Shown here in pieces: positions 1 through 8,108 of a DNA stretch of 8,108 nucleotides (position 1 is its first letter; every line of letters starts with the position of its first letter). The translations under genes and the position numbers were made by a program. The notes below the pieces were generated by a model. It was not told the DNA's origin. It searched no databases and saw only the letters and a list, made by a program, of their open reading frames with translations. Source of the DNA: Desulfobacterales bacterium (GTDB taxonomy: Bacteria > Desulfobacterota > DSM-4660 > Desulfatiglandales > Desulfatiglandaceae); the NCBI GenBank assembly GCA_022013615.1, contig JAKLQB010000250.1:1-8108 (forward strand), in the 5' to 3' direction.

Positions 1-717
1 ATTGGAGAAGTCCACAACAACCCGGAGCATCATCTCATACAAGTCCAGATTCTCCAGGCCCTCATGAGCCGATACGCGCCCCTGACCGTAGCCATGGAAT
101 TTTTTAACAAGACTCAGCAACCAGTCTTAGACCATTATATGGACGGATCAACTACCGAAGCTACCGAAACAGTATTCCTGAAAGACGTGGGCTGGGATAA
201 AAACTGGGCATACGCCTACCACTTTTACCGCCCCCTACTGTTAATGACAAAAGAAAAAGGCCGGAAAATCCTCGCCATCAACGCGCCTAATAACATTGTA
301 AAAAAAGTGGCCAGATCCGGTCTCAGCAGCCTGGATCCAAGCGAACGAAATCAACTGGCAAGCCATATCAACCTAAAAAATGAAAGTCATCGTACATATT
401 TACGCAAGATCTACGAAAAACACACACACCAGGATTTGAAAAGGTTTGACTTTTTCTACCAGGCACAGTGTGTCTGGGAAGACGCCATGGCCGAAAACAT
501 TGCAAAGTATTTAAGTAAAACCAAAGAAAAACTGGTTGTCCTTGCGGGCAACGGGCATATTATTAACAAATACGGAATCCCGAACCGGACCCTAAGCCGA
601 ATTAAAATCCCAATGGCCACGATCCTCCTGCAGCCTCTGACCGGTCCTTTAAACATAGAAAGAAAAATGGCTGACTATATCTGGCTGACGGGCGACTGTT
701 CAAGATATAACTTTTAG
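1..717 (+). CDS. ChaN/DUF399-family putative haem-binding lipoprotein-like protein, 5' end cut by window
   Basis: The reading frame is open from base 1, so the true start lies left of the window; the ATG at 64 is internal. The first visible residues, IGEVHNNPEHH followed by a Gln-rich helix and AVAMEFF, match the N-terminal GE-H-D/N-N-x-x-H-H signature of the ChaN-like (DUF399, Tiki/TraB-related) fold. Near the end, LAGNGHIINKYGIPNR matches the second conserved block (a/vGxGHxxxxxGIPxR). 238 residues are visible, so most of the mature domain is present. Campylobacter ChaN is an iron-regulated lipoprotein that binds haem; in other bacteria the role is less clear and metal-dependent hydrolysis has been proposed for relatives. 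Any signal peptide or lipobox would be upstream and cannot be seen. It ends 37 bp before the Nudix gene on the same strand, so co-transcription is plausible. The family call is firm, the exact role is not. Confidence 0.85.
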   Translation: MGEVHNNPEHHLIQVQILQALMSRYAPLTVAMEFFNKTQQPVLDHYMDGSTTEATETVFLKDVGWDKNWAYAYHFYRPLLLMTKEKGRKILAINAPNNIVKKVARSGLSSLDPSERNQLASHINLKNESHRTYLRKIYEKHTHQDLKRFDFFYQAQCVWEDAMAENIAKYLSKTKEKLVVLAGNGHIINKYGIPNRTLSRIKIPMATILLQPLTGPLNIERKMADYIWLTGDCSRYNF

Positions 718-754
718 AGTCAAACTCAAAACGTTTTATGAAGATTTATAGATA

Positions 755-1312
755 ATGACTCATCACGACCCCGAATTTCAATTCTGCCCTGTTTGCGGCA
801 ACAGGCTTGATTCTTCAAAACTGAAAACAAATGAACCGCGCAGGCCTGTCTGTCCTTCGTGCAATTTTGTCTTTTACCTGGATCCAAAGGTTGTCGCCTG
901 CTCAATATTGGAGATGGATAGTAAAATCGTACTCCTGAGGCGCGGCATAAATCCTCAAAAGGGGAAATGGGTCATGCCGGGCGGGTATGTTGATCGCGGG
1001 GAGGAGGTAAAGGCCGCGGCAATCAGGGAGACCGAAGAAGAATGCGGGGTCAAAACACGAATCAATATGCTCCTTGGTGCCTATTCCTATTCCGGGCAGG
1101 TTCCGGTAGTGCTTGTGTACGTTGCACAATATGTCTCCGGAGACCTGATTTCAGGAGATGAGACCCTGGAAGCCAAGTTGTTTTCAGAAAAGCAGACCCC
1201 ATGGGCGAATCTGGCTTTCCAGAGCACAGTAGATGCCCTCAAAGATTATTATGCAATCAAAAATAAAGGAGGAAAAATCCCAACAGATGGAGATAAAACC
1301 CCAGAGGATTGA
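755..1312 (+). CDS. Nudix hydrolase with N-terminal zinc ribbon
   Basis: The 185-residue protein has two parts. Residues 11-36 form a zinc ribbon (CPVC at 11-14, CPSC at 33-36), and residues 45-165 form a Nudix fold. The Nudix box runs from G77 to V99 and fits Gx5Ex7REUxEExGU exactly, with E83, R91-E92 and E95-E96 as expected Mg2+-binding and catalytic residues; the usual hydrophobic U at 93 is Thr. Such enzymes cleave nucleoside diphosphates linked to another group (ADP-ribose, NADH, Nudix-type cofactors). The zinc ribbon resembles NudC, but the NADH-pyrophosphatase SQPWPFPxS array is absent and the protein is shorter than NudC, so the substrate cannot be assigned. No clear Shine-Dalgarno precedes ATG 755. 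The last 26 bp overlap hisD and hold the hisD ribosome binding site. The C-terminal tail after residue 168 is polar and probably disordered. Confidence 0.88.
   Translation: MTHHDPEFQFCPVCGNRLDSSKLKTNEPRRPVCPSCNFVFYLDPKVVACSILEMDSKIVLLRRGINPQKGKWVMPGGYVDRGEEVKAAAIRETEEECGVKTRINMLLGAYSYSGQVPVVLVYVAQYVSGDLISGDETLEAKLFSEKQTPWANLAFQSTVDALKDYYAIKNKGGKIPTDGDKTPED
1267..1272 (+). promoter_or_regulatory. Shine-Dalgarno for hisD inside the Nudix gene
   Basis: AGGAGG at 1267-1272 lies inside the 3' end of the Nudix coding region. It favours ATG 1287 as the hisD start over the upstream in-frame ATGs at 1233 and 1251, which would add 18 or 12 residues of low-complexity sequence. The 14-nt spacing is longer than usual, so initiation may depend on coupling with the terminating ribosome of the upstream gene. 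Confidence 0.6.
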
Positions 1313-2579
1313 AGACCTTAGTCCTGAAAAAAAGAAAACTGTTATGAAAAGGTCTATGGAAGACATCTCATCTATCTATGAAGATATCCGCCGGATTGTA
1401 GACGATGTCAAAACCCGCGGCGATGCCGTTGCCCTGGAACACTACCGCAAGCATAAGCACGACATTGCTCCTTCCGACCTGGAAGTCACTAAAGAGGAGA
1501 TAGCAGCGGCCTATAAACAGGTGGATACCAAAGTCGTTGACTGCCTGAAAACGGCGGCCCAAAACATCTCTAAATTCCACCAGGCACAGCTTGAGCGCGA
1601 GATGTGGTCCATAGAGGTGAGAGACGGTATATTGGCTGGCCGCATCACCAGATCAATGGATATTGTGGGGTGTTACATACCGGGAGGGACGGCAGCATAC
1701 CCGAGCTCGGTTCTGATGACCGTGCTCCCTGCCAGGGTTGCAGGCGTGGGTCAGATAGTAGCCGTGACGCCCCCAGGCAAGGGAATGGTGGCAAATCCAG
1801 CTACGCTGGTGGCGGCGGATATTGCGGGTTGCAACCGAATTTTCAAGGTGGGAGGGCCATGGGGCATTGCAGGCCTGGCCTACGGTACTGAGACGATGCC
1901 CAGAGTGGACAAGATCGTGGGGCCCGGGAACAAGTATGTGACCGCTGCCAAGATGCTGGTATACGGGCACGTTGGTATCGATTCACCTGCCGGGCCGAGC
2001 GAGTCTTTGATCCTCTCTGATCACACTGGAGACCCGGAATGGATAGCATGGGACTTCTTGTCCCAGGTGGAACACGACCCGGATTCAGCCGCTGTGCTCA
2101 TTACCCCAATAGAGAAAATAGCAGAGGAGGTCTGCGAGATCATAAACAGGGAGTATGATTCTCTTCCCAGAAAGGAGATCTTTGAGTCGTCCCTCACCAA
2201 ACACTCTTATGTGCTCATTGCAAAAGATATGGAGCAGGCCATTGATTTTACCAACGAATATGCTGCTGAACATCTACAGATTCTTACCCAGGACCCGTTT
2301 ATTACCCTGAACAGGATCAAGCATGCAGGCTCCATTTTTTTGGGACCTTATGCCCCGGTTCCAGTGGGTGATTATGCTTCCGGGACCAACCACGTCCTGC
2401 CCACCGGTCAGTGTGCACGGATGTTTTCCGGGCTGTCTGTGGACGATTTCATCAAAAAACCCACATTCCAATACCTTAGCAAAAAAGGCCTGGCCAGTTT
2501 GAAGGACATTGTTGTCACCCTGGCGGAAGCGGAAGGACTTCCCATTCATGCAAGAGCAGTGAAGGCCCGGTTTAAATAG
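1287..2579 (+). CDS. hisD: Histidinol dehydrogenase
   Basis: The 430-residue protein has the length of E. coli HisD (434). HisD oxidises L-histidinol to L-histidine in two NAD+-dependent steps, the last reactions of histidine synthesis. Family motifs are in order: [10 protein letters not shown] at 131-140, [11 protein letters not shown] at 212-222, AGPSE at 235-239, [14 protein letters not shown] at 361-374. The zinc ligands known from the E. coli enzyme align as Q260, H263, D362 and H421, and the catalytic Glu-His pair is E328-H329; substrate-contact positions S238, H369 and E416 also fit. Numbering starts at ATG 1287; the reading frame is open further upstream to 1233. No other his gene is in the window, so hisD stands apart from a his operon here. 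Some HisD homologues act on other polyol or amino-alcohol substrates, so a paralogue is possible, although all catalytic residues are kept. Confidence 0.9.
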
Positions 2580-2651
2580 ACTTGATTCACATGACAATAG
2601 CTGTTAAAGATTGGTAGAATTTTTTCTATTTTAGAAAGGAGGTTCGAAGAT

Positions 2652-3089
2652 ATGGCAGACATAAAAGGCTACAATATGCCGGATGAGCTTTATTATCACA
2701 AGGATCATAGCTGGGCTCGAGTGGAAGGGACTAAAGTGACCGTGGGCATGAATGATTTCTTCCAGAAGGAATCAGGAGACATTGTTTTCATTGATCTTCC
2801 TGAAGAGGAAGATGATGTGGAACAGGGAGAAATCTGCGGGAAGATTCAATCCAGAAAATGGATCGGAAAACTGGTGGCTCCGGTGTCTGGGGAAATTGTG
2901 GAGATAAACGAAGAACTGGAGGAAGATACGAGCCTCATCAATACTGATCCTTATGGCAAAGGCTGGATTCTGGTGATTGAGGCCGGGGATCTGGATTCGG
3001 AATTGGGAAATTTAATGCAGGGTGAGGCACTTATCGACTTCATAGATCAAGAAGTAAAAATAGCCGAAGAGGAAAAGGCAAAGGCTTAA
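2652..3089 (+). CDS. gcvH: GcvH-like lipoyl-carrier protein
   Basis: The 145-residue protein aligns throughout with glycine cleavage H protein: YHKDHSWARVEG at 15-26, GDIVFIDLP at 42-50, APVSGEIVEINEEL at 76-89 and INTDPYGKGWI at 96-106. The lipoylated lysine should be K69, because the Pro of PVSG lies eight residues after it, as in GcvH. The surrounding motif is QSRKW rather than the usual ESVKA, and the PEVGD turn is replaced by acidic PEEEDD. H proteins carry aminomethyl groups on a swinging lipoyl arm between GcvP, GcvT and lipoamide dehydrogenase; related H-like carriers serve other complexes. AAAGGAGG at 2635-2642 is an excellent Shine-Dalgarno, 9 nt before ATG. The acidic, Lys/Glu-rich C-terminus (from about 132) exceeds the typical length of about 128. 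gcvT and gcvP are not in the window, while a lipoate ligase follows, so the protein may be an H-like paralogue. Confidence 0.85.
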   Translation: MADIKGYNMPDELYYHKDHSWARVEGTKVTVGMNDFFQKESGDIVFIDLPEEEDDVEQGEICGKIQSRKWIGKLVAPVSGEIVEINEELEEDTSLINTDPYGKGWILVIEAGDLDSELGNLMQGEALIDFIDQEVKIAEEEKAKA

Positions 3090-3091
3090 GG

Positions 3092-3126
3092 CGATTGAAT
3101 ATTGACGATTGACGATTGAATATTTA
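3092..3126 (+). repeat. Heptamer quasi-tandem array, left arm
   Basis: Three exact copies of CGATTGA (3092, 3106, 3113) and two variants (ATATTGA at 3099, ATATTTA at 3120) give five units of period 7, starting 3 bp after the gcvH-like stop codon. ATTGACGATT at 3101-3110 and 3108-3117 recurs inverted at 3338-3347. Function unknown; it resembles the short tandem heptamer repeats reported from cyanobacterial genomes in organisation only. Confidence 0.75.
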
Positions 3127-3320
3127 TGGGTAGTGATTTTTTTTAAAAAATAGTCAATGATGGTCTCGTAAAAAGACCTAATTTGTGTTTCTTGCGCCCA
3201 TAACCATCTGATACTCCAATATATAAAATATTCTTTTTGTGTGTTTTGCCTGCCCCGTTAAATTCTTTGAAAAAGACAGCATAACGTATTTAACCAGGGT
3301 GCCTTTTTGTGGCAATACCA
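3127..3320. other. Non-coding core between inverted heptamer arrays
   Basis: No ORF of note is present. T8A6 at 3137-3150 is followed by a small hairpin with stem GGTCT (3162-3166) and AGACC (3174-3178) and a 7-nt loop. The rest is AT-rich with no recognised motif. With its flanking arrays the unit spans about 257 bp, a size compatible with a miniature mobile or dispersed element, but no target-site duplication could be recognised. Confidence 0.45.
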
Positions 3321-3348
3321 GTCAATAGTCAATCGAAAATCGTCAATT
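3321..3348 (-). repeat. Heptamer quasi-tandem array, inverted right arm
   Basis: GTCAATA, GTCAATC, GAAAATC and GTCAATT follow each other with period 7. Read on the minus strand they give ATTGAC-type units like those at 3092-3126; AATCGTCAAT at 3338-3347 is the exact complement of ATTGACGATT at 3101-3110. The two arrays could pair across the core. Confidence 0.65.
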
Positions 3349-3418
3349 TTTGGAAAAATACGCATTGAATTTGAACTCTTCCCAAAACCGGGATGACTAT
3401 TATTCTCAATAACACATA

Positions 3419-4486
3419 ATGCCCCCATACTGGCGTCTATTCAAAAACCACTCAAGGCCTGTCTCCGCCGCCAAAGGACTGGCGGTGGATGACACCTTGC
3501 CTCAATCGGTGGCACACAATAACTCCCCACCCATCCTTAACCTTTACACCTTTGTTCCGTCAGTCAATGTAGGGAAATACCAGGACATTGAGTCGGCCCT
3601 GAAGCTTGACAGATGCCGCGGCCGTGGCATTGAATTCAGCCGTAGAAGTACGGGGGGAGGGACTGTAATTATGGGGCCTGACATCGTAGCACTCGGCCTG
3701 GGCATTAATGTGGATTATCCTGGCCTAAAGAAGGGGGTCGGCGGGGTTTTTGAGTCCTTAAGCCTTGTCCTGATAAGGGCTCTTGGAAAACTGGGCATTC
3801 AGGCCTATTTCCAGCCCAAAAATGACCTGGAGGTGGGTGGTAAAAAAATTGCCGGGCTTTCTGCCGCATCGGAGGAGGGCAAAAGTTTGCTCTTTCACAC
3901 GAGCCTTTTGGTGGATTTTGATATCGCCTTAATGACCGATATTATGAATACGCCTTTGATCAAGATCCGCGACAAGGGGTATAACTGCTTCAGCCAGCGC
4001 ATGACCACAATAAGGCAGGAACTTGGCCGGGATGTTCCCGTAAGCAAGGCGATGGAAGCCGTTGAAGAGGCATTTGAAGAGGAATTTAATATCCGTTTCA
4101 AGGAGGATGCCCCGGATGCGTGGGAAGAGAAGACAATCCAGCGATTCATTGAGGAAAGATATACCAATCCGGAATGGATCTTTTCCCACAAACACCCAAG
4201 GGCCAGAATGGGCATAGGGCAACTAAAGAGCAAAGGCGGTCTTCTGGAGATCTATCTTTCGCTCTCGGGCGGCTCCATTGAAAATGTCCTGATAACTGGT
4301 GATTTCTTCTCCACAAGTGAAGACATACACCGGCTTGAAAATGCCCTCAAATGGACTTCTGCCCGCAAAGAAAGTATAGAAAAGAACCTGTCATCCGTAT
4401 GGCATGAGGATACGATTTACGGCCTGGATGTGCCCACTCTTACCAGGGCTATCTTGAAGGCCAAGGAAAACCAGGTAAGACTCTAA
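3419..4486 (+). CDS. lplA: Lipoate-protein ligase, LplA-LplB fused
   Basis: The 355-residue protein is a bipartite ligase. LplA enzymes activate lipoate or octanoate with ATP to the acyl-AMP and transfer it to a lysine of a carrier domain. The catalytic domain covers about residues 5-255: WRLF at 5-8, LAVDDTL at 21-27 (the nMAxDEal helix), RRSTGGGTV at 75-83 (acyl-AMP loop), KNDLEVGGKKIAG at 134-146 with K143 as the expected catalytic lysine, and NPEW at 250-253. The accessory (LplB-type) domain covers about 262-350, with KGGLLEIYLSL and ITGDFF at 292-297. The His that usually follows RRxxGGGxV by one residue is replaced (V83-I84-M85). No Shine-Dalgarno is visible before ATG 3419; TATTAT at 3398-3403 may be a -10 element giving a very short leader. 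It lies between a GcvH-like carrier and a radical SAM gene, so the carrier is its probable substrate. The fused layout recalls sLpl(AB) ligases. Confidence 0.87.
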   Translation: MPPYWRLFKNHSRPVSAAKGLAVDDTLPQSVAHNNSPPILNLYTFVPSVNVGKYQDIESALKLDRCRGRGIEFSRRSTGGGTVIMGPDIVALGLGINVDYPGLKKGVGGVFESLSLVLIRALGKLGIQAYFQPKNDLEVGGKKIAGLSAASEEGKSLLFHTSLLVDFDIALMTDIMNTPLIKIRDKGYNCFSQRMTTIRQELGRDVPVSKAMEAVEEAFEEEFNIRFKEDAPDAWEEKTIQRFIEERYTNPEWIFSHKHPRARMGIGQLKSKGGLLEIYLSLSGGSIENVLITGDFFSTSEDIHRLENALKWTSARKESIEKNLSSVWHEDTIYGLDVPTLTRAILKAKENQVRL

Positions 4487-4539
4487 CCGGGAATGCGAAA
4501 ATGGAAATAAGAAGGGCCGGCTTCAGACAAAATATTCTA

Positions 4540-4570
4540 TCTTCGCGTTCTTTGCGTCTTTGCGGTGAAA
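4540..4570 (+). repeat. Dispersed CTTTGCGT-type repeat supplying a ribosome binding site
   Basis: CTTCGCGT, CTTTGCGT and CTTTGCGG follow almost head to tail, ending in TGAAA. This phrase is, from general knowledge, a widespread intergenic repeat in environmental bacteria. Its end contributes GGTGA at 4564-4568, the only Shine-Dalgarno-like match before ATG 4576 (7-nt spacer). The frame through the repeat is open back to ATG 4501, which would add 25 residues that look like translated repeat rather than protein. Confidence 0.65.
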
Positions 4571-4575
4571 TAAAA

Positions 4576-5613
4576 ATGGACAAACAACAGAGCCCCAAAT
4601 ATGCAAAAATGAGCCAGGCCACGGCTATTTCTCTCGGACTGGTCAGGGGCAGGATGTATCGTGGTGCGGTCAACAGGTGCGTCAATCTGCTGGCCCATTA
4701 TCCAGAGGGCTGTTCTGCCAACTGCGCCTATTGCGGTCTTGCTAAAAAGCGACCCGGAACTTACCACGACAAGAGCTTTATCCATGTCCCATGGCCTGTC
4801 TTTCCCACGGGCCAAATCATTAGCGCCATCAACAATGCCCCCTCCTATGTAAAGCGCACATGCATCTCCATGATAACCAACGGAAAATGCCGCCAGGCAA
4901 CCCTTGAGATGACCCAGCGGTTGAATGATGAGACTGCACTTCCCATATCCATCCTCATTGCCCCCACCATCCTCGAAGAAGACGACCTGGCTGAGATGAA
5001 AGAGAGCGGGGTTGATAAGATCGGGGTGGCCGTTGATCTCGCCACACCGGAACTGTTCGACAAATATCGTGGAAAAGGGGTTTCCGGCCCCCACAAATGG
5101 GAAAAATACTGGGAGATCATGGAAACGGCCCTTGTCATCTTTGGGCATCCAAATGTGGGCGCTCATCTGATGGTAGGGATGGGGGAAACAGAAGAACAGA
5201 TGGTCTCCATCATGAACAGGCTCTGGCAGATGGGCGTGGTGAGTCACCTCTTCTCTTTTTTTTCCGAGGAAGATTCCAGTCTGGCCGACAGGCCCCAGCC
5301 ACCCTGGCCTGCCTATCTGAGGATTCAATTGGCACGCTACATTATCGAAGAGAACCTCGGTAGCAACCAGGATATGAGTTTTGACAAGGCAGGCCGCATT
5401 ATTGATTTCGGCCTTGCCTCTGACCTTCTGGCGAGTATTATCAGTTATGGTAAAGCCTTCATGACCAGCGGGTGCCTCGGCCCGGATGGACAGGTGGCCT
5501 GCAACCGGCCCTTTGGCAACTGCCTGCCGGATGTGAATCAATGGAACTATCCGTATCTTCCCAACGAAGAAGAGCTCGACCTCATCCGGCAGAATATCTT
5601 TAATGTTGAATAG
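4576..5613 (+). CDS. Radical SAM protein of lipoyl/biotin-synthase type, LipS1/LipS2-like
   Basis: The 345-residue protein carries the radical SAM cluster motif CSANCAYC (C46, C50, C53), followed by GLAKKRP. SAM-binding strands are consistent with ISMITNG at 97-103, ISILIAPT at 124-131, GVAVD at 150-154 with RGKGVSGPHKW after it, and HLMVGMGETE at 197-206 (the GE loop). The C-terminal block at 299-316 holds C300, C309 and C316 (SGCLGPDG, ACNRPFGNC), which could bind a second Fe-S cluster. Sulfur-inserting enzymes such as LipA and BioB use an auxiliary cluster as sulfur donor. The overall pattern is BioB/ThiH-like rather than classic LipA, which has CxxxxC-xxxxxC before the radical SAM motif. 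The neighbouring carrier and ligase suggest a lipoyl synthase of the LipS1/LipS2 kind; which of the two cannot be decided here. The start is set at ATG 4576 because upstream codons lie in a dispersed repeat. A methylthio- or biotin-type role remains possible. Confidence 0.8.
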   Translation: MDKQQSPKYAKMSQATAISLGLVRGRMYRGAVNRCVNLLAHYPEGCSANCAYCGLAKKRPGTYHDKSFIHVPWPVFPTGQIISAINNAPSYVKRTCISMITNGKCRQATLEMTQRLNDETALPISILIAPTILEEDDLAEMKESGVDKIGVAVDLATPELFDKYRGKGVSGPHKWEKYWEIMETALVIFGHPNVGAHLMVGMGETEEQMVSIMNRLWQMGVVSHLFSFFSEEDSSLADRPQPPWPAYLRIQLARYIIEENLGSNQDMSFDKAGRIIDFGLASDLLASIISYGKAFMTSGCLGPDGQVACNRPFGNCLPDVNQWNYPYLPNEEELDLIRQNIFNVE

Positions 5614-5642
5614 TTACCGCACAGCTCAGCGGTAAAAAAAAG
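5614..5642. terminator. Stem-loop directly after the radical SAM gene
   Basis: TTACCGC (5614-5620) and GCGGTAA (5629-5635) form a perfect 7-bp stem with an 8-nt loop, starting at the base after the stop codon. The homopolymer after it is A on the plus strand, so it lacks the U-tract for plus-strand termination and fits the minus direction better. It may act as a 3'-end stabiliser or a weak terminator. Confidence 0.45.
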
Positions 5643-5645
5643 AAT

Positions 5646-5677
5646 TGTAGGTTGGGTTGAGGCTCGAAACCCAACAT
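5646..5677 (+). repeat. GTTGGGTT...AACCCAAC hairpin repeat
   Basis: GTTGGGTT (5651-5658) pairs with AACCCAAC (5668-5675) over a 9-nt loop. From general knowledge, TAGGTTGGGTT...AACCCAACA is a phrase dispersed in intergenic regions of many unrelated bacteria. A single copy is seen here. Confidence 0.6.
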
Positions 5678-5702
5678 AATGCCCGTTTTGGTAAAAAAGC
5701 TT

Positions 5703-5731
5703 TTGACACAATATTTGGAAGGTGATAGATT
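5703..5731 (+). promoter_or_regulatory. Sigma70-type promoter of the tRNA pair
   Basis: TTGACA (5703-5708), a 17-nt spacer and TAGATT (5726-5731, 4 of 6 to consensus). Transcription would start at about 5738, some eight bases before tRNA-Lys, typical for a tRNA operon. Confidence 0.7.
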
Positions 5732-5745
5732 AAAAAATTACAATT

Positions 5746-5822
5746 GGGCCGTTAGCTCAGTTTGGTAGAGCAGCGGACTTTTAATCCGTTGGTCGCGAGT
5801 TCGATTCTCGCACGGCCCACCA
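5746..5822 (+). tRNA. tRNA-Lys (UUU)
   Basis: A complete 77-nt cloverleaf: acceptor stem GGGCCGT/ACGGCCC, D arm with GCTC/GAGC, anticodon stem GCGGA/TCCGT closing a loop CTTTTAA with anticodon TTT at 5780-5782, TpsiC arm GCGAG/CTCGC with TTCGATT, discriminator A at 5819 and an encoded CCA at 5820-5822. The gene follows a good promoter and precedes tRNA-Glu by 106 bp, with which it is probably co-transcribed. Confidence 0.97.
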
Positions 5823-5928
5823 TATTCGAATACCTGATACTTCGGTAAAAAGATACATTGGACCCTCTCTGAGGTGAATACCTCGACGGTGACCATTTTT
5901 ACGCTATAAACCACGCTGTTCACATAGC
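5823..5928 (+). other. Spacer between tRNA genes
   Basis: No gene seen. A small hairpin GAGGT (5871-5875)/ACCTC (5880-5884) with a GAAT loop lies near the middle; it may mark an RNA-processing structure between the two tRNAs, but this is speculative. Confidence 0.4.
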
Positions 5929-6006
5929 GTCCCCATCGTCTAGTCCGGTCCAGGACACTGGCCTTTCACGCCGGCAACACCGGTTCGAATCCGGTTGGGG
6001 ACGCCA
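5929..6006 (+). tRNA. tRNA-Glu (UUC)
   Basis: A complete 78-nt cloverleaf: acceptor stem GTCCCCA/TGGGGAC, anticodon stem CTGGC/GCCGG with loop CTTTCAC and anticodon TTC at 5965-5967, TpsiC arm with GGTTCGAATCC, discriminator G at 6003 (usual for bacterial tRNA-Glu) and an encoded CCA at 6004-6006. No separate promoter was recognised, and a terminator follows ten bases later. Confidence 0.97.
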
Positions 6007-6015
6007 ATGTATCCT

Positions 6016-6058
6016 AAAAGGGGGTTTGCTGTATATTCATGGCAAGCCCCTTTTTTTT
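6016..6058 (+). terminator. Rho-independent terminator of the tRNA-Lys/tRNA-Glu unit
   Basis: GGGGTTTGC (6021-6029) pairs with GCAAGCCCC (6042-6050) with one G-T wobble, over a 12-nt loop, followed by T8 (6051-6058). The AAAA before the stem lengthens the pairing with the T run and could let it act in both directions. Confidence 0.92.
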
Positions 6059-6059
6059 A

Positions 6060-6238
6060 GCCATAACGGCGTGAAAGAACAGCCTTTCACGTCCCGCTGC
6101 AAGCAGATAGGGAGTTGGGCCCATTTCTAAATCAGTAAATTGCCTGCGGACTGATATACCGGCTTATAATCAGGGTAAGGGCTTCATTCTTCACAGACAT
6201 TCGTTTTTTATAGAGAATGAAGGCCTATCTCAAATGCT
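6060..6238. other. Structured intergenic region with successive hairpins
   Basis: No gene seen. Three inverted repeats follow one another: CGTGAAAG (6070-6077)/CTTTCACG (6084-6091), extendable by a G-T and a G-C pair; ATCAGT (6131-6136)/ACTGAT (6150-6155); and CTTCATTCT (6182-6190)/AGAATGAAG (6214-6222) over a 23-nt loop, with GG/CC pairs outside a G-G mismatch. They could belong to a small RNA or to the leader of a transcript from the TATAAT at 6165. Confidence 0.45.
6140..6170 (+). promoter_or_regulatory. Promoter candidate with perfect -10
   Basis: A consensus TATAAT at 6165-6170 is preceded by TTGCCT at 6140-6145 (4 of 6), with a long 19-nt spacer. A transcript from about 6177 would begin almost exactly with the 6179-6225 stem-loop. 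The -35 match and spacer are weak points. Confidence 0.4.
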
Positions 6239-6268
6239 GTGATAAAACCTTTAAAATCCCTTGAGTGC

Positions 6269-6304
6269 TTGACAAAACAGCCTCTTGATTTAACATTTGT
6301 TAAA
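6269..6304 (+). promoter_or_regulatory. Promoter with overlapping palindromic operator
   Basis: A consensus TTGACA (6269-6274), a 16-nt spacer and TAACAT (6291-6296, 4 of 6) form a promoter. TTTAACA (6289-6295), two bases and TGTTAAA (6298-6304) form a perfect palindrome over the -10, where a dimeric repressor would block polymerase. The palindrome and the -35 consensus are seen directly; repression is inferred. The regulator is unknown. Confidence 0.5.
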
Positions 6305-6353
6305 CAATATAGTATTATACCAATTTCAAACCTAATTAAGGAGGCCCAATGTC

Positions 6354-6434
6354 ATGAAAATACTATCAATGGATGTGAGCAGGCGGTTTTTTACTGCTGC
6401 ATTGTCGGCTTCGTCTTCGACCAAAAAGGTTTAA
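6354..6434 (+). CDS. Possible 26-residue small ORF or leader peptide
   Basis: AAGGAGG at 6338-6344 stands 9 nt before ATG 6354, a near-ideal ribosome binding site, downstream of the promoter at 6269. The product begins MKILSMDVSRRFF and ends after 26 residues. A T6 run lies at 6387-6392; losing or gaining bases there would join the frame to a reading frame that continues to 6484 and would give a product of about 42 residues. It may therefore be a real small protein, a regulatory leader peptide or a frameshifted remnant. I recognise no family. A competing frame with GTG at 6239 (81 codons) lacks a ribosome binding site and looks less likely. Confidence 0.25.
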   Translation: MKILSMDVSRRFFTAALSASSSTKKV

Positions 6435-6565
6435 TGGCCAACCTGACATTTGAAGGCTCGAAGTACACCATACTGAAAAAGTAAAAAACAAGGCCGAGAT
6501 TCAAAAAAGTTTCACAGCAATTTAGATGTGCCCTTTCCATCTCCCTTTCAGGAAAAGGCAGTGGT

Positions 6566-6628
6566 ATGCCCCCAGAAATCTGCCCTAACTGTGCTTCGCT
6601 GAAAATTGTGAGAAATTGGGAAAAATAG
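6566..6628 (+). pseudogene. Possible transposase zinc-ribbon remnant
   Basis: A 20-codon frame contains CPNCASLKIVRNWEK before TAG at 6626. CPxCxSxxIVxNG-x is the first half of the zinc ribbon that begins many IS transposases, including IS1-type InsA. Dropping one base near 6616 would give RNGKNSSF, closer to the family pattern. No catalytic domain, terminal inverted repeat or target duplication was seen, so the match, about 15 residues long, could be chance. Confidence 0.25.
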
Positions 6629-6659
6629 CAGTTTTCGTTCAGACTCTATTTATGAAATA

Positions 6660-6668
6660 TGCTACAAT
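6660..6668 (+). promoter_or_regulatory. Extended -10 promoter before the zinc-ribbon protein gene
   Basis: TGCTACAAT at 6660-6668 fits the extended -10 pattern TGnTATAAT with one mismatch. A transcript would start near 6675, giving a leader of about 33 nt with the AAGGTGG ribosome binding site at 6693-6699. No good -35 was found, which extended -10 promoters do not need. Confidence 0.5.
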
Positions 6669-6707
6669 TACTACCTGAGAATTTGGGTTATAAAGGTGGG
6701 AGTATAA

Positions 6708-7103
6708 GTGGTTAAGAAATATCGCGTGCTTTTTCACGGCTTAATTGAGGATAAAACATTCTTCAAGACCCAAATGACACGCCTGGGCGCACCTTCAGGG
6801 ACTGTGGACAAAATAATCCGTGAGGCCCCGATTATTTTAAAAGGGGACTTGACTTTGGGTGATGCAAGGCAATATGCCGATGTCGTTCAAGATGCAGGCG
6901 GCATGGTCACGATTCAGGAAAACGGGTACTTTGAAGAATCAACGCGAATTGATTCTTCGAATTCCTTCGTTTTTTTCAAGGATATTACCATGTGTCCTGA
7001 ATGCGGGTTAAAACAGCCAAAAGGAAAAATCTGCGAAAGATGCGGATTTAGACTTAAAAATGAAGAAAAGGGGCAAGGGAAACAAAACACCTCAGGTCAT
7101 TGA
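6708..7103 (+). CDS. Small protein with L7/L12-C-like domain and C-terminal zinc ribbon
   Basis: The 131-residue protein starts at GTG 6708, set by AAGGTGG at 6693-6699 (8-nt spacer). Residues 4-70 have the pattern of a small alpha/beta domain seen in many deltaproteobacterial proteins and similar to the ribosomal L7/L12 C-terminal fold: a strand RVLFHGLI, a helix, KIIREAPIILKGDL, then ARQYADVVQDAGGMVTIQ. Residues 71-92 form a linker, and CPEC (96-99) with CERC (109-112) form a zinc ribbon. The tail is basic and Gln/Lys-rich. No enzyme motif, signal peptide or membrane segment is present, so it is probably a cytoplasmic protein binding nucleic acid or protein, but its function is unknown. It overlaps the next gene by 44 bp, which suggests coupled translation. 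Confidence 0.75.
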   Translation: MVKKYRVLFHGLIEDKTFFKTQMTRLGAPSGTVDKIIREAPIILKGDLTLGDARQYADVVQDAGGMVTIQENGYFEESTRIDSSNSFVFFKDITMCPECGLKQPKGKICERCGFRLKNEEKGQGKQNTSGH

Positions 7104-7626
7104 TCTGGAGGAGGGCCGACTCCTTTTGGCGGTCAGGAAAGGATACAGAAACTGGGAAAGCCGGTTTAAAGAGGAATTCGGCCTGGAGACCAAGCTTTCC
7201 CAAATCTCTTTTAAGACACTTTCATTCCTGGCGCAGGGGAAGGATAAGGGAACCTTTTATCTCTATGACCTGATTATGAACCTTCAGGGCTTAGGTTCCG
7301 GGTTTGAATTCAATGAATTAAGCCCGAAGAAAAAAATGGCTATTATTGACCAGTACCTCTTTATGCTGGACCTGATTCGTTTTGAATGCATGAAAAGGCT
7401 GGGATGGCTTACGAGCTATCCCGGGGAGGATTTCACGTTAGTAGAGCTCATAAAAGGGTTTGACAGGCTGGCACCGAGTCTTCAGGCAAAGGTCCCCGTG
7501 CTCAGCCAGGACCACGCCGCATATGAGCAGTATTCTACAATGAATACCTATGATAAGGAAGGTTTTGTTAGAAAGCTGATCCCGGAAGTCTTGAAGGAGA
7601 TTCAGGATTACTCAACGACTTTGTAA
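7060..7626 (+). CDS. Conserved-looking hypothetical protein, function unknown
   Basis: I do not recognise this 188-residue protein. It starts within the 3' end of the zinc-ribbon gene (44-bp overlap) with no clear Shine-Dalgarno, so coupled translation is likely. The first 15 residues are basic (KKRGKGNK). The rest looks soluble and largely helical, with charged amphipathic stretches at 18-45, 85-115 and 165-185 and a Trp-Leu-Thr-Ser-Tyr-Pro-Gly turn at 116-122. No cysteine motif, nucleotide-binding loop, signal peptide or membrane span is visible. Base composition and codon use resemble its neighbours, which favours a real gene. Its 3' end overlaps the gene on the other strand by 19 bp. The shared transcript with the zinc-ribbon protein suggests a joint role. 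Confidence 0.7.
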   Translation: MKKRGKGNKTPQVIDLEEGRLLLAVRKGYRNWESRFKEEFGLETKLSQISFKTLSFLAQGKDKGTFYLYDLIMNLQGLGSGFEFNELSPKKKMAIIDQYLFMLDLIRFECMKRLGWLTSYPGEDFTLVELIKGFDRLAPSLQAKVPVLSQDHAAYEQYSTMNTYDKEGFVRKLIPEVLKEIQDYSTTL

Positions 7627-7865
7627 ACTGTATCGTTTTCCCGGACTCTTTCTTTCACCTTAACTCCCACCAGATCTCCCACCTTGACTTCATCCACAAC
7701 TTGATTGTCAATTTCCATGCTGGAGATTTCTTCCGTAAAGTCGGTGGTATGGCCCTTGTACCTCAGAATATCACCTTTCTTAATAGTTCCATTAGTAACC
7801 TCCAGAGCAGCGACACTGGGTTTTGCGAAAAACTTGACAATAACGGCAACCTGTTCTTCGGGCAT
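7608..7865 (-). CDS. EF-Tu/IF2 domain II-like small protein
   Basis: The 85-residue protein consists of a single beta-barrel resembling domain 2 of translational GTPases (EF-Tu, IF2): VAVIVKFFAKPSVAALEV at 6-23, NGTIKKGDILRYKGHTTDF at 25-43 (the GxIxxGDxI turn and the xGHTTDF strand), ISSMEIDNQ at 47-55 and VGDLVGVKV at 62-70. The GTPase domain is absent. Stand-alone copies are annotated as translation elongation factor-like proteins in bacteria and archaea; their role is not established. Two Shine-Dalgarno sequences precede the start on the minus strand: GGAGGT (7872-7877, 6-nt spacer) is used, and AGGAGG at 7888-7893 lies further up. Its 3' end overlaps the converging gene by 19 bp, so no separate terminator fits between them. 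Confidence 0.85.
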   Translation of the reverse strand: MPEEQVAVIVKFFAKPSVAALEVTNGTIKKGDILRYKGHTTDFTEEISSMEIDNQVVDEVKVGDLVGVKVKERVRENDTVYKVVE

Positions 7866-7871
7866 GATTAT

Positions 7872-7893
7872 ACCTCCGAATTAAACGCCTCCT
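7872..7893 (-). promoter_or_regulatory. Double Shine-Dalgarno of the EF-Tu-like gene
   Basis: On the minus strand GGAGGT (7872-7877) sits 6 nt before ATG 7865, and AGGAGG (7888-7893) sits 22 nt before it. The inner one decides the start; the outer one may act as a standby site. No promoter could be identified upstream with confidence. Confidence 0.6.
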
Positions 7894-7960
7894 AATTTTT
7901 CCAACTTACTGAAATTAAGCAGCTTTTTTCCCTCACACATGGAATGAAAATACGCTAAGT

Positions 7961-8011
7961 GCATGGAGCATGGAGTTTTTTCGCTTTGCACTATGCTCTT
8001 TGCCCTATGCA
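7961..8011. repeat. Heptamer arrays in two orientations
   Basis: GCATGGA is repeated at 7961 and 7968. From 7984 four heptamers follow in alternation: CTTTGCA, CTATGCT, CTTTGCC and CTATGCA (7984-8011), a 14-bp compound period. The second array, read on the minus strand, gives GCAT-type units similar to the first, so the two are roughly inverted. This upstream region of the EF-Tu-like gene otherwise holds no gene. Confidence 0.65.
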
Positions 8012-8018
8012 ATAACTC

Positions 8019-8058
8019 CCATTATTCCATTATTCCATCATTCCAGTATTCCAACATT
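8019..8058 (+). repeat. CCATTATT octamer array
   Basis: Five octamers in a row: CCATTATT at 8019 and 8027, then CCATCATT, CCAGTATT and CCAACATT, the last three varying at positions 4 and 5. The constant positions are CCA and ATT. This is a 40-bp microsatellite-like array of a kind common between genes in Desulfobacterota. Confidence 0.75.
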
Positions 8059-8059
8059 C

Positions 8060-8080
8060 TCCCCGCTGTTTCAGCGGGGA
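8060..8080. other. Strong GC-rich hairpin
   Basis: TCCCCGCTG (8060-8068) and CAGCGGGGA (8072-8080) pair perfectly over a TTT loop. It is followed by GAGCGAAGCGAA and, about 20 bases later, T5. The distant T-run makes it a poor intrinsic terminator. It could be a REP-like repeat or the tail of a gene beyond the window. Confidence 0.5.
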
Positions 8081-8108
8081 TGAGCGAAGCGAACTGACTT
8101 TTTATTTA

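Follow-up and report, generated by a model that had tools for sequence, protein, structure and literature searches.

A carrier-ligase-LipS2 gene triad of Desulfobacteraceae-type bacteria is probably part of a split lipoate-assembly module

An 8,108-nucleotide stretch of DNA from a Desulfobacterales bacterium (GenBank assembly GCA_022013615.1, contig JAKLQB010000250.1, positions 1 to 8,108; hereafter the window) carries three same-strand open reading frames (ORFs) in a row after hisD: a GcvH-like carrier (GcvHx), a two-domain ligase (LplAx) and a LipS2-type radical S-adenosylmethionine (SAM) protein (LipS2x). The triad is a conserved gene set, beyond chance, and probably belongs to a split module of the sLpl-LipS1/LipS2 type that lipoylates a dedicated carrier, the likeliest partner of which would be a GlcD/HdrD-like redox complex. 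The mechanism that homology suggests is conveniently divided into four steps: (i) LplAx would spend ATP to load Lys69 of GcvHx with free octanoate (or lipoate), (ii) LipS2x would insert sulfur at C8 of the octanoyl arm, (iii) an unlinked LipS1 (of the S1b type described below, or S1a where that is the sole type) would insert sulfur at C6, and (iv) the finished lipoyl arm would most likely hand electrons or a thiol-bound group to the redox complex. This reading draws on direct observation of gene order, conservation, clade membership, retained cluster ligands, co-occurrence and genome inventories. Many genomes belonging to one order of Desulfobacteraceae-type bacteria keep the module, which apparently builds lipoic acid on a private carrier. 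Lipoate has few known users; those named in the available text of PMC6067878 and PMC10332631 are the 2-oxoacid dehydrogenases, acetoin dehydrogenase, glycine cleavage and sHdr.

Conservation of the triad

ORF calling and the Pfam and NCBIfam matches bore out the original prediction of a GcvH-like carrier, a fused LplA-LplB ligase and a LipS-type radical SAM protein on the same strand. As LplAx has two Pfam domains, LplA-B_cat (1e-37) and Lip_prot_lig_C (7e-10), the fused LplA-LplB label is correct. Its solved relatives are 1vqz, 5ij6 and 2ars, and it scored 98.9 bits with the NCBIfam LplAB model (cut-off 550).

Among named relatives, the nearest are metagenome-derived Desulfobacteraceae genomes (loci L001-L003, genomes G001-G003), and all evidence on partner genes elsewhere in the genome is drawn from relatives, not from the window's own genome. 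A match to the radical SAM protein was present in 27 of the 28 genomes searched in G003's family (90% completeness requested, values not given). These matches fall into two sorts by identity to the window protein, S2x at 63-90% and S2a at 47-51%. Carrier, ligase and LipS2x stood in that order in 23 of the 25 S2x loci fetched (24 genomes), and the two loci lacking the full triad, L050 and L063, are cut within the ligase gene by the start of their contigs. hisD precedes the triad in 22 of the 25 loci and is absent before the triad of L060; it is probably a place marker outside the function of the module. The nearer kin stand outside this count: L003 has the full row with a shortened carrier, L002 begins at the ligase and L001 begins just ahead of LipS2x. 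Across the order S2x is present in 50 of 85 genomes. A LipS2 match at 1e-20 occurred in 44 of 297 genomes of a phylum sample, where 2 of 30 inspected loci (L159 and L165) were S2x. The gap between carrier and ligase genes has a median of 13 nt and a maximum of 229 nt in 26 loci other than the window, which suggests that the two genes are co-transcribed; it is 329 nt in the window. The gaps flanking the pair (median about 106 nt) leave co-transcription with the neighbours undecided. Among the papers brought up by literature searches, most of them judged by title and abstract opening, none dealt with a LipS2-carrier-ligase triad in Desulfobacterota.

ORF picking, which is prone to miss short or overlapping ORFs, yielded 22 carriers and 27 ligases when applied to the window and 29 further loci. 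Three irregular loci were seen. The carrier ORF of L003 (positions 6172-6537, metagenome-assembled genome 4484_190.2) is shortened to 121 residues with a new C-terminus that reaches the ligase gene, its lipoyl site being intact; the cause is a true deletion or a join made in assembly. G016 holds two hisD-carrier-ligase-LipS2x clusters (L054 and L073; LipS2x 75% and 71% identity), owing to duplication or a mixed assembly. In G027 the LplAx match (L067:9025-10088) comes in two overlapping pieces, a frameshift or an assembly error.

Assignment of LipS2x

Sequence comparisons supported LipS2x as a LipS2-type protein and not a biotin synthase. Its best NCBIfam model was LipS2 (NF053743) at 203.7 bits, and the bioB model gave 26.7 bits, short of its cut-off of 225. 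Placement among the biotin synthases, named in advance as grounds for refutation, was thus not borne out. It counts against the LipS2 assignment that the score falls below the curated cut-off of 270. The LipS2 proteins of LipT/LplA/LipS1 clusters are also below it (224.7 and 227.1 bits), and only 1 of the 297 phylum genomes passed it, versus the 44 that matched at 1e-20; hence, the curated cut-off is uninformative as a test in these bacteria. NCBIfam models were used in place of named LipS1 and LipS2 reference sequences. In the LipS2 tree, from which S2a_G012 (216 residues) was dropped by length, a 100/100 branch set S2x (30 rows) apart from the remaining 38 rows, and the LipS2 of G061, a genome of a sister lineage, adjoined it at 93/93.

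The auxiliary-cluster ligands of T. kodakarensis LipS2 are given as C85, C276 and C279 in the available text of PMC9585515. With L136 standing in for the T. kodakarensis sequence, we found the counterparts Cys96, Cys300 and Cys309 in 28 of 28 LipS2x proteins. L136, which scores above the curated cut-off, has the last two auxiliary cysteines as CX2C. The AlphaFold model of LipS2x (predicted local distance difference test score 86.3, predicted template modelling (TM) score 0.87) had BioB, human LIAS, LipA, PylB and HydE as its nearest folds by Foldseek (TM about 0.5), and a PDB sequence search with LipS2x gave no match. We consider it very likely that the triad is a LipS2-type assembly module for GcvHx.

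LipS1 partner

The second LipS partner for which the original prediction had proposed a search was sought in the relatives, where LipS1 (counted at E<=1e-20) was usually present and, where seen, unlinked to the triad. It occurred in 24 of the 30 genomes G001-G030 and in 55 of the 85 genomes of the order. Sorted by LipS2 class, the latter gave 28/38 for S2x only, 12/12 for S2x plus S2a, 7/7 for S2a only and 8/28 for genomes with neither. In this sorting S2x stands for at least 56% identity and a LipS2 match weaker than 1e-90 escapes. Fragments decided the class of G010 (S2x, two fragments) and of G009 and G013 (S2a). G343 was sorted as S2x-only, yet a LipS2a fragment adjoins its LipS1, and the mended S2x-only count is 27/37. 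The enrichment of LipS1 in S2x-only over LipS2-free genomes (28/38 vs 8/28) had a Fisher p of 4e-4, and among genomes of at least 3 Mb the counts were 19/25 vs 1/7 (p 0.006); these p-values are a guide only, the genomes being related by descent and uneven in completeness. Taking all S2x genomes together, LipS1 was present in 40 of 50, and in 21 of the 24 that came from the 90%-completeness request. The proposed alternative lipoate-assembly module therefore stands as regards its LipS2-type protein and conserved gene set, whereas a route with a single radical SAM enzyme is improbable as a rule.

The LipS1 tree was split at 100/100 into S1a (29 rows) and S1b (24 rows). S1a rows came from genomes with S2a (19), with S2x only (7) and without LipS2 (3). 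S1b rows came from genomes with S2x (20, of which one, G029, also has S2a) or with no LipS2 found (4), and never from genomes with S2a alone. In a tree that took in phylum loci S1b was a single clade (23/23 at 100/100); omitted from this tree were G338 (long branch), L149 and L156 (which duplicate G030 and G011) and any phylum locus lacking a LipS1 of more than 240 residues. A distinct LipS1 clade, S1b, thus tracks LipS2x. S1b proteins keep three cysteines that match by order the auxiliary ligands of T. kodakarensis LipS1 (8/8 rows) and have a C-terminal TCCS motif (24/24 rows). In the fetched flanks, some of which were ended by contig ends, no lip gene lay beside S1b; a neighbour family read from sequence as rimO was present in 16 of 22 loci. 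On two single contigs LipS2x and LipS1 were far apart, at 3978002 vs 2201976 in G015 and 4094351 vs 2890069 in G332. As more than 1 megabase separates them, surveys that rely on synteny would overlook some of its genes.

A polyprenyl synthetase gene occurs near S1b (10 of 22 loci) and near the LipS1 of G061. Its reading as a relic of a split operon was discarded, identity being 30-37%. The LipS1 tree, poorly settled at its base, did not establish co-descent of S1b with the G061 LipS1.

Several observations weigh against the proposed LipS1/LipS2 pathway. LipS1 was not found at E<=1e-20 in 10 of the 50 S2x genomes. Two of these, G001 and G003, are close relatives of the window, and three more, G005, G017 and G022, passed the 90%-completeness request (values not given). 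A third close relative, G002, holds solely an S1a-type LipS1. Twelve S2x genomes carry a second LipS2, and among them S1b occurs in G029 alone; in the others S2x would therefore need S1a. Moreover, we infer catalysis and client from homology, which by itself is not proof of lipoylation. In at least some hosts LipS2x might act without LipS1, to leave an 8-mercaptooctanoyl arm on GcvHx with Cys62 possibly as the second thiol of a mixed disulfide. The LipS1-free genomes (six are sized 3.1 to 4.9 Mb), the conservation of Cys62 (Table 1) and the 8-mercaptooctanoyl product that T. kodakarensis LipS2 alone yields, as reported in the available text of PMC9585515, are consistent with such a route. It gains weight at the expense of the LipS1/LipS2 pathway because three of the S2x genomes without LipS1 came from the 90%-completeness request. 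However, genomes up to 10% incomplete would be expected to lack LipS1 at about this rate (3 of 24), LipS1 co-occurs with S2x, S1b tracks it, and G015 and G332 hold both. We regard a LipS1-free route as unlikely and a LipS1 partner that is present but unlinked to the triad as likely.

The carrier and its possible client

The carrier tree split GcvP-linked GcvH proteins (11 rows, 9 different) from KW-type carriers (26 rows) at 100/100. The 11 GcvP-linked rows were from 12 loci (L196 gave none) and include two duplicates. GcvHx grouped with carriers linked to GlcD/HdrD-like genes, away from the GcvP-linked GcvH. Its lipoyl site is SRKW (SxKW in KW-type carriers) vs SVKA in GcvP-linked GcvH, and Lys69 aligns with the ESVK lysine of the GcvH structure 1onl. 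Cys62, the sole cysteine of the window carrier, is kept in the orthologous carrier of G061; the position is F in 11/11 GcvP-linked rows (9 different) and in 6/7 GlcD/HdrD-linked rows. Because the GcvP-adjacent GcvH sits in another clade, we think that GcvHx is a KW-type carrier distinct from the glycine-cleavage H protein.

As KW-type carriers adjoin GlcD/HdrD-like genes, a redox partner for GcvHx may be proposed. On the single 3.4-Mb contig of G061 a run of genes encodes a CCG protein, the carrier, a GlcD-like flavin adenine dinucleotide (FAD) oxidase, an HdrD-like Fer4-CCG protein and an unknown 292-residue protein, then the ligase, LipS2, cytochrome c7, polyprenyl synthetase and LipS1. The G061 carrier is 65% identical to GcvHx with the same CGKIQSRKWIGKLVAPVSGE motif, and the ligase is 56% identical to LplAx. 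The G030 run, part of which reads N, has a carrier (53%), GlcD-like, HdrD-like and unknown proteins, ligase, LipT-like protein, LipS1, Fer4 and CCG proteins and LipS2. The client is the weakest step of the proposal. It speaks against a GlcD/HdrD-like client that, in a search with positive controls, no LipT, LipS1, GlcD-, HdrD- or CCG-like gene was found in any of 30 triad loci, that of the window among them; for GlcD and HdrD this absence concerns the triad loci, no genome-wide search having been made in the window's order. A GlcD/HdrD-like complex is thus a tentative choice of client, rather under even chances.

A second KW-type carrier (47-49%) was also seen between Fer4-CCG proteins in G017 (L247:3365-9455) and G006 (L245:1-3898); L245 also has an LplA-like ligase, and L247 has a multihaem cytochrome as well as a GlcD-like protein. 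These carriers possibly belong to another lipoate-carrier redox system.

Alternatively, GcvHx might be the genuine LbpA of a sulfur-metabolism system of sHdr type, perhaps run reductively. Like the LbpA of sHdr sulfur oxidation described in PMC6067878, it is a single-domain GcvH-like lipoate carrier with a private ligase and LipS proteins, and the sister run of G061 holds Fer4-CCG and CCG proteins. However, GcvHx lacks the two cysteines near the N- and C-termini described for LbpA in the available text of PMC6067878 (a comparison by description) and has one cysteine ahead of the lipoyl lysine. LplAx keeps the small C-terminal domain that the same text says is missing from sulfur-oxidizer LplA. 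No shdr genes are among the window's genes, and the G061 neighbours are GlcD/HdrD-like, not hdrC1B1A-hyp-hdrC2B2. We judge an LbpA identity to be improbable.

Still less credible is the reading of GcvHx as the usual H protein of glycine cleavage, accompanied by a salvage ligase and an incidental radical SAM neighbour. It does share family and lipoyl lysine with that protein, and it passes the NCBIfam gcvH equivalog cut-off (TIGR00527; 123.4 bits vs 115.85); public records name it GcvH. Nevertheless, in relatives it is additional to a separate GcvP-adjacent GcvH of the other clade, its lipoyl site has a different motif, and the module exists in G015, where no GcvP was found. The database names 'GcvH' and 'biotin synthase' are misleading for GcvHx and LipS2x.

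Other lipoate machinery in related genomes

The lack of gcvT, gcvP, lipA and lipB noted in the original prediction reflects only the 8-kb window: relatives hold lipA, gcvP and further PF21948 proteins away from the triad (gcvT was not searched). Among G001-G030, LipA scored above cut-off in 25/30 genomes and GcvP was present in 20/30, with LipA within 11 kb of GcvP on the same contig in 9. In G026 one contig holds GcvH, GcvP, a 250-residue PF21948 protein (read as LipB by size and place) and LipA. Hence, LipA/LipB with an ordinary GcvH, which the original prediction named as grounds for refutation, do occur in many relatives; yet the GcvP-linked GcvH is of the other clade, and no lipoate machinery besides the module was found in G015.

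G015 is one contig of 4,801,105 bases. It encodes one PF21948 protein at 1e-5 (LplAx, so that no LipB-like protein was found), one LipS1 (S1b) and one LipS2, with no LipA at 1e-20, no GcvP at 1e-10 and no 2-oxoacid dehydrogenase E2 (PF00198) at 1e-5. Its four other GcvH-domain matches all lack the lipoyl lysine. Given this inventory, the triad and the unlinked LipS1b would be the only lipoate machinery and GcvHx the only evident target (PF00364 and shdr not searched). G014, its tree neighbour, has a like inventory plus a weak PF00198 match (29 bits). A full lipoate pathway with one acceptor and without GcvP or a PF00198 E2 points to a further lipoate user (sHdr not searched there), and G015 is a clean place to seek it; GcvHx probably works for a different redox enzyme, which may be undescribed. 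It is possible, though we hold the idea loosely, that GcvHx acts as carrier in a lipoate-dependent system of Desulfobacteraceae-type bacteria that is as yet undescribed; its lipoyl arm would then ferry electrons, or a group bound to a thiol, for a FAD/Fe-S complex of the GlcD/HdrD-like kind, with upkeep by a private split LipS1/LipS2 pair even without glycine cleavage and 2-oxoacid dehydrogenases.

The lysine-less GcvH-domain proteins of G015 are longer (L241:3762-4760, L241:5252-5653, L242:4513-5841 and L242:6433-9840), and similar matches in long frames occur in many of genomes G001-G030.

Comparison with known systems

By the features tested, the triad appears to be a variant of the sLpl(AB)-LipS1/LipS2 pathway and to have a carrier distinct from both gcv-type GcvH and LbpA. 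Like that pathway, as described in the available text of Tanabe et al. 2023 (PMC10332631), it has a ligase and a LipS2-type protein for a GcvH-like carrier, and LipS1 is present in most of the relatives searched. Unlike it, the triad has LipS1 unlinked, no LipT at the locus and hisD in front, and its LipS2 forms its own clade with two extra cysteines. The LipS tree of PMC10332631 excludes genomes without LipS1 or LipS2, and the word 'Desulfo' does not appear in the main text.

The LplA (about 520 residues)-LipT-LipS1a-LipS2a clusters of the same bacteria have the same kinds of enzyme as the triad, at about 49% identity for LipS2 and 29% for LplA; in contrast, LipS1 is adjacent and LipT is present in these clusters. 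LipT is frequent, but not obligatory, near sLpl-LipS1/LipS2 genes.

The two extra conserved cysteines relative to LipS2a (Table 1) and the single radical SAM gene of the triad could suggest that LipS2x inserts both sulfurs, in which case Cys105 and Cys316 would help to keep or restore a sulfur-donor cluster and LipS1 would serve other carriers, but this is most improbable, as Cys105, found in 116 of the best 120 of 5345 LipS2x homologues, is replaced in the other 4, and Cys316 is also present in L148 and L150, which have LipS1 next door, and in L139, which has it in the wider locus L250.

Features of the window

The gene order in the window is chaN (cut), a NUDIX gene, hisD, GcvHx, LplAx, LipS2x, tRNA-Lys and tRNA-Glu (Table 1). 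The longest ORF of LipS2x starts at 4501; translation more likely begins with the ATG at 4576, because similarity to relatives sets in at about residue 21-29 of that ORF.

Table 1 Features of the triad region with positions in the window
Feature	Position	Strand	Evidence or occurrence
hisD, upstream neighbour	1287..2579	+	PF00815 3.4e-160; start chosen by hand, longest ORF from 1233
GcvHx, H-protein-like lipoyl carrier, 145 residues	2652..3089	+	PF01597 (GCV_H) 9.1e-36
Cys62, 7 residues ahead of lipoyl Lys	2835..2837	+	C in best 120 of 2775 homologues
Lys69, predicted lipoyl lysine (motif CGKIQSRKWIGKLVAPVSGE)	2856..2858	+	K in best 120 of 2775 homologues
Intergenic stretch with 38-nt imperfect inverted repeat	3090..3418	+	arms 3098-3135 and 3313-3350
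LplAx, two-domain lipoate/octanoate-protein ligase, 355 residues	3419..4486	+	PF21948 + PF10437
LipS2x, LipS2-type radical SAM sulfur-insertion enzyme (predicted), 345 residues	4576..5613	+	NF053743 203.7 bits
CX3CX2C radical SAM cluster motif, Cys46/Cys50/Cys53	4711..4734	+	28/28 LipS2x, 11/11 LipS2a
Cys96, counterpart of T. kodakarensis LipS2 auxiliary ligand C85	4861..4863	+	order + alignment to L136
Cys105, extra Cys typical of LipS2x	4888..4890	+	28/28 LipS2x, 0/11 LipS2a
Cys300, Cys309, counterparts of auxiliary ligands C276, C279	5473..5502	+	order + alignment to L136
Cys316, extra Cys of LipS2x, common to L139, L148, L150	5521..5523	+	120 of best 120 of 5345 homologues

The arms of the inverted repeat between the carrier and ligase genes are 79% matched and enclose 177 nt, perhaps a small mobile element. 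Overlapping ORFs of 131 and 188 residues at 6708-7626 gave no Pfam or NCBIfam match at 0.001. On the minus strand, 7608-7865 encodes an 85-residue protein that resembles EF-Tu domain 2/4 alone, just below the Pfam cut-offs.

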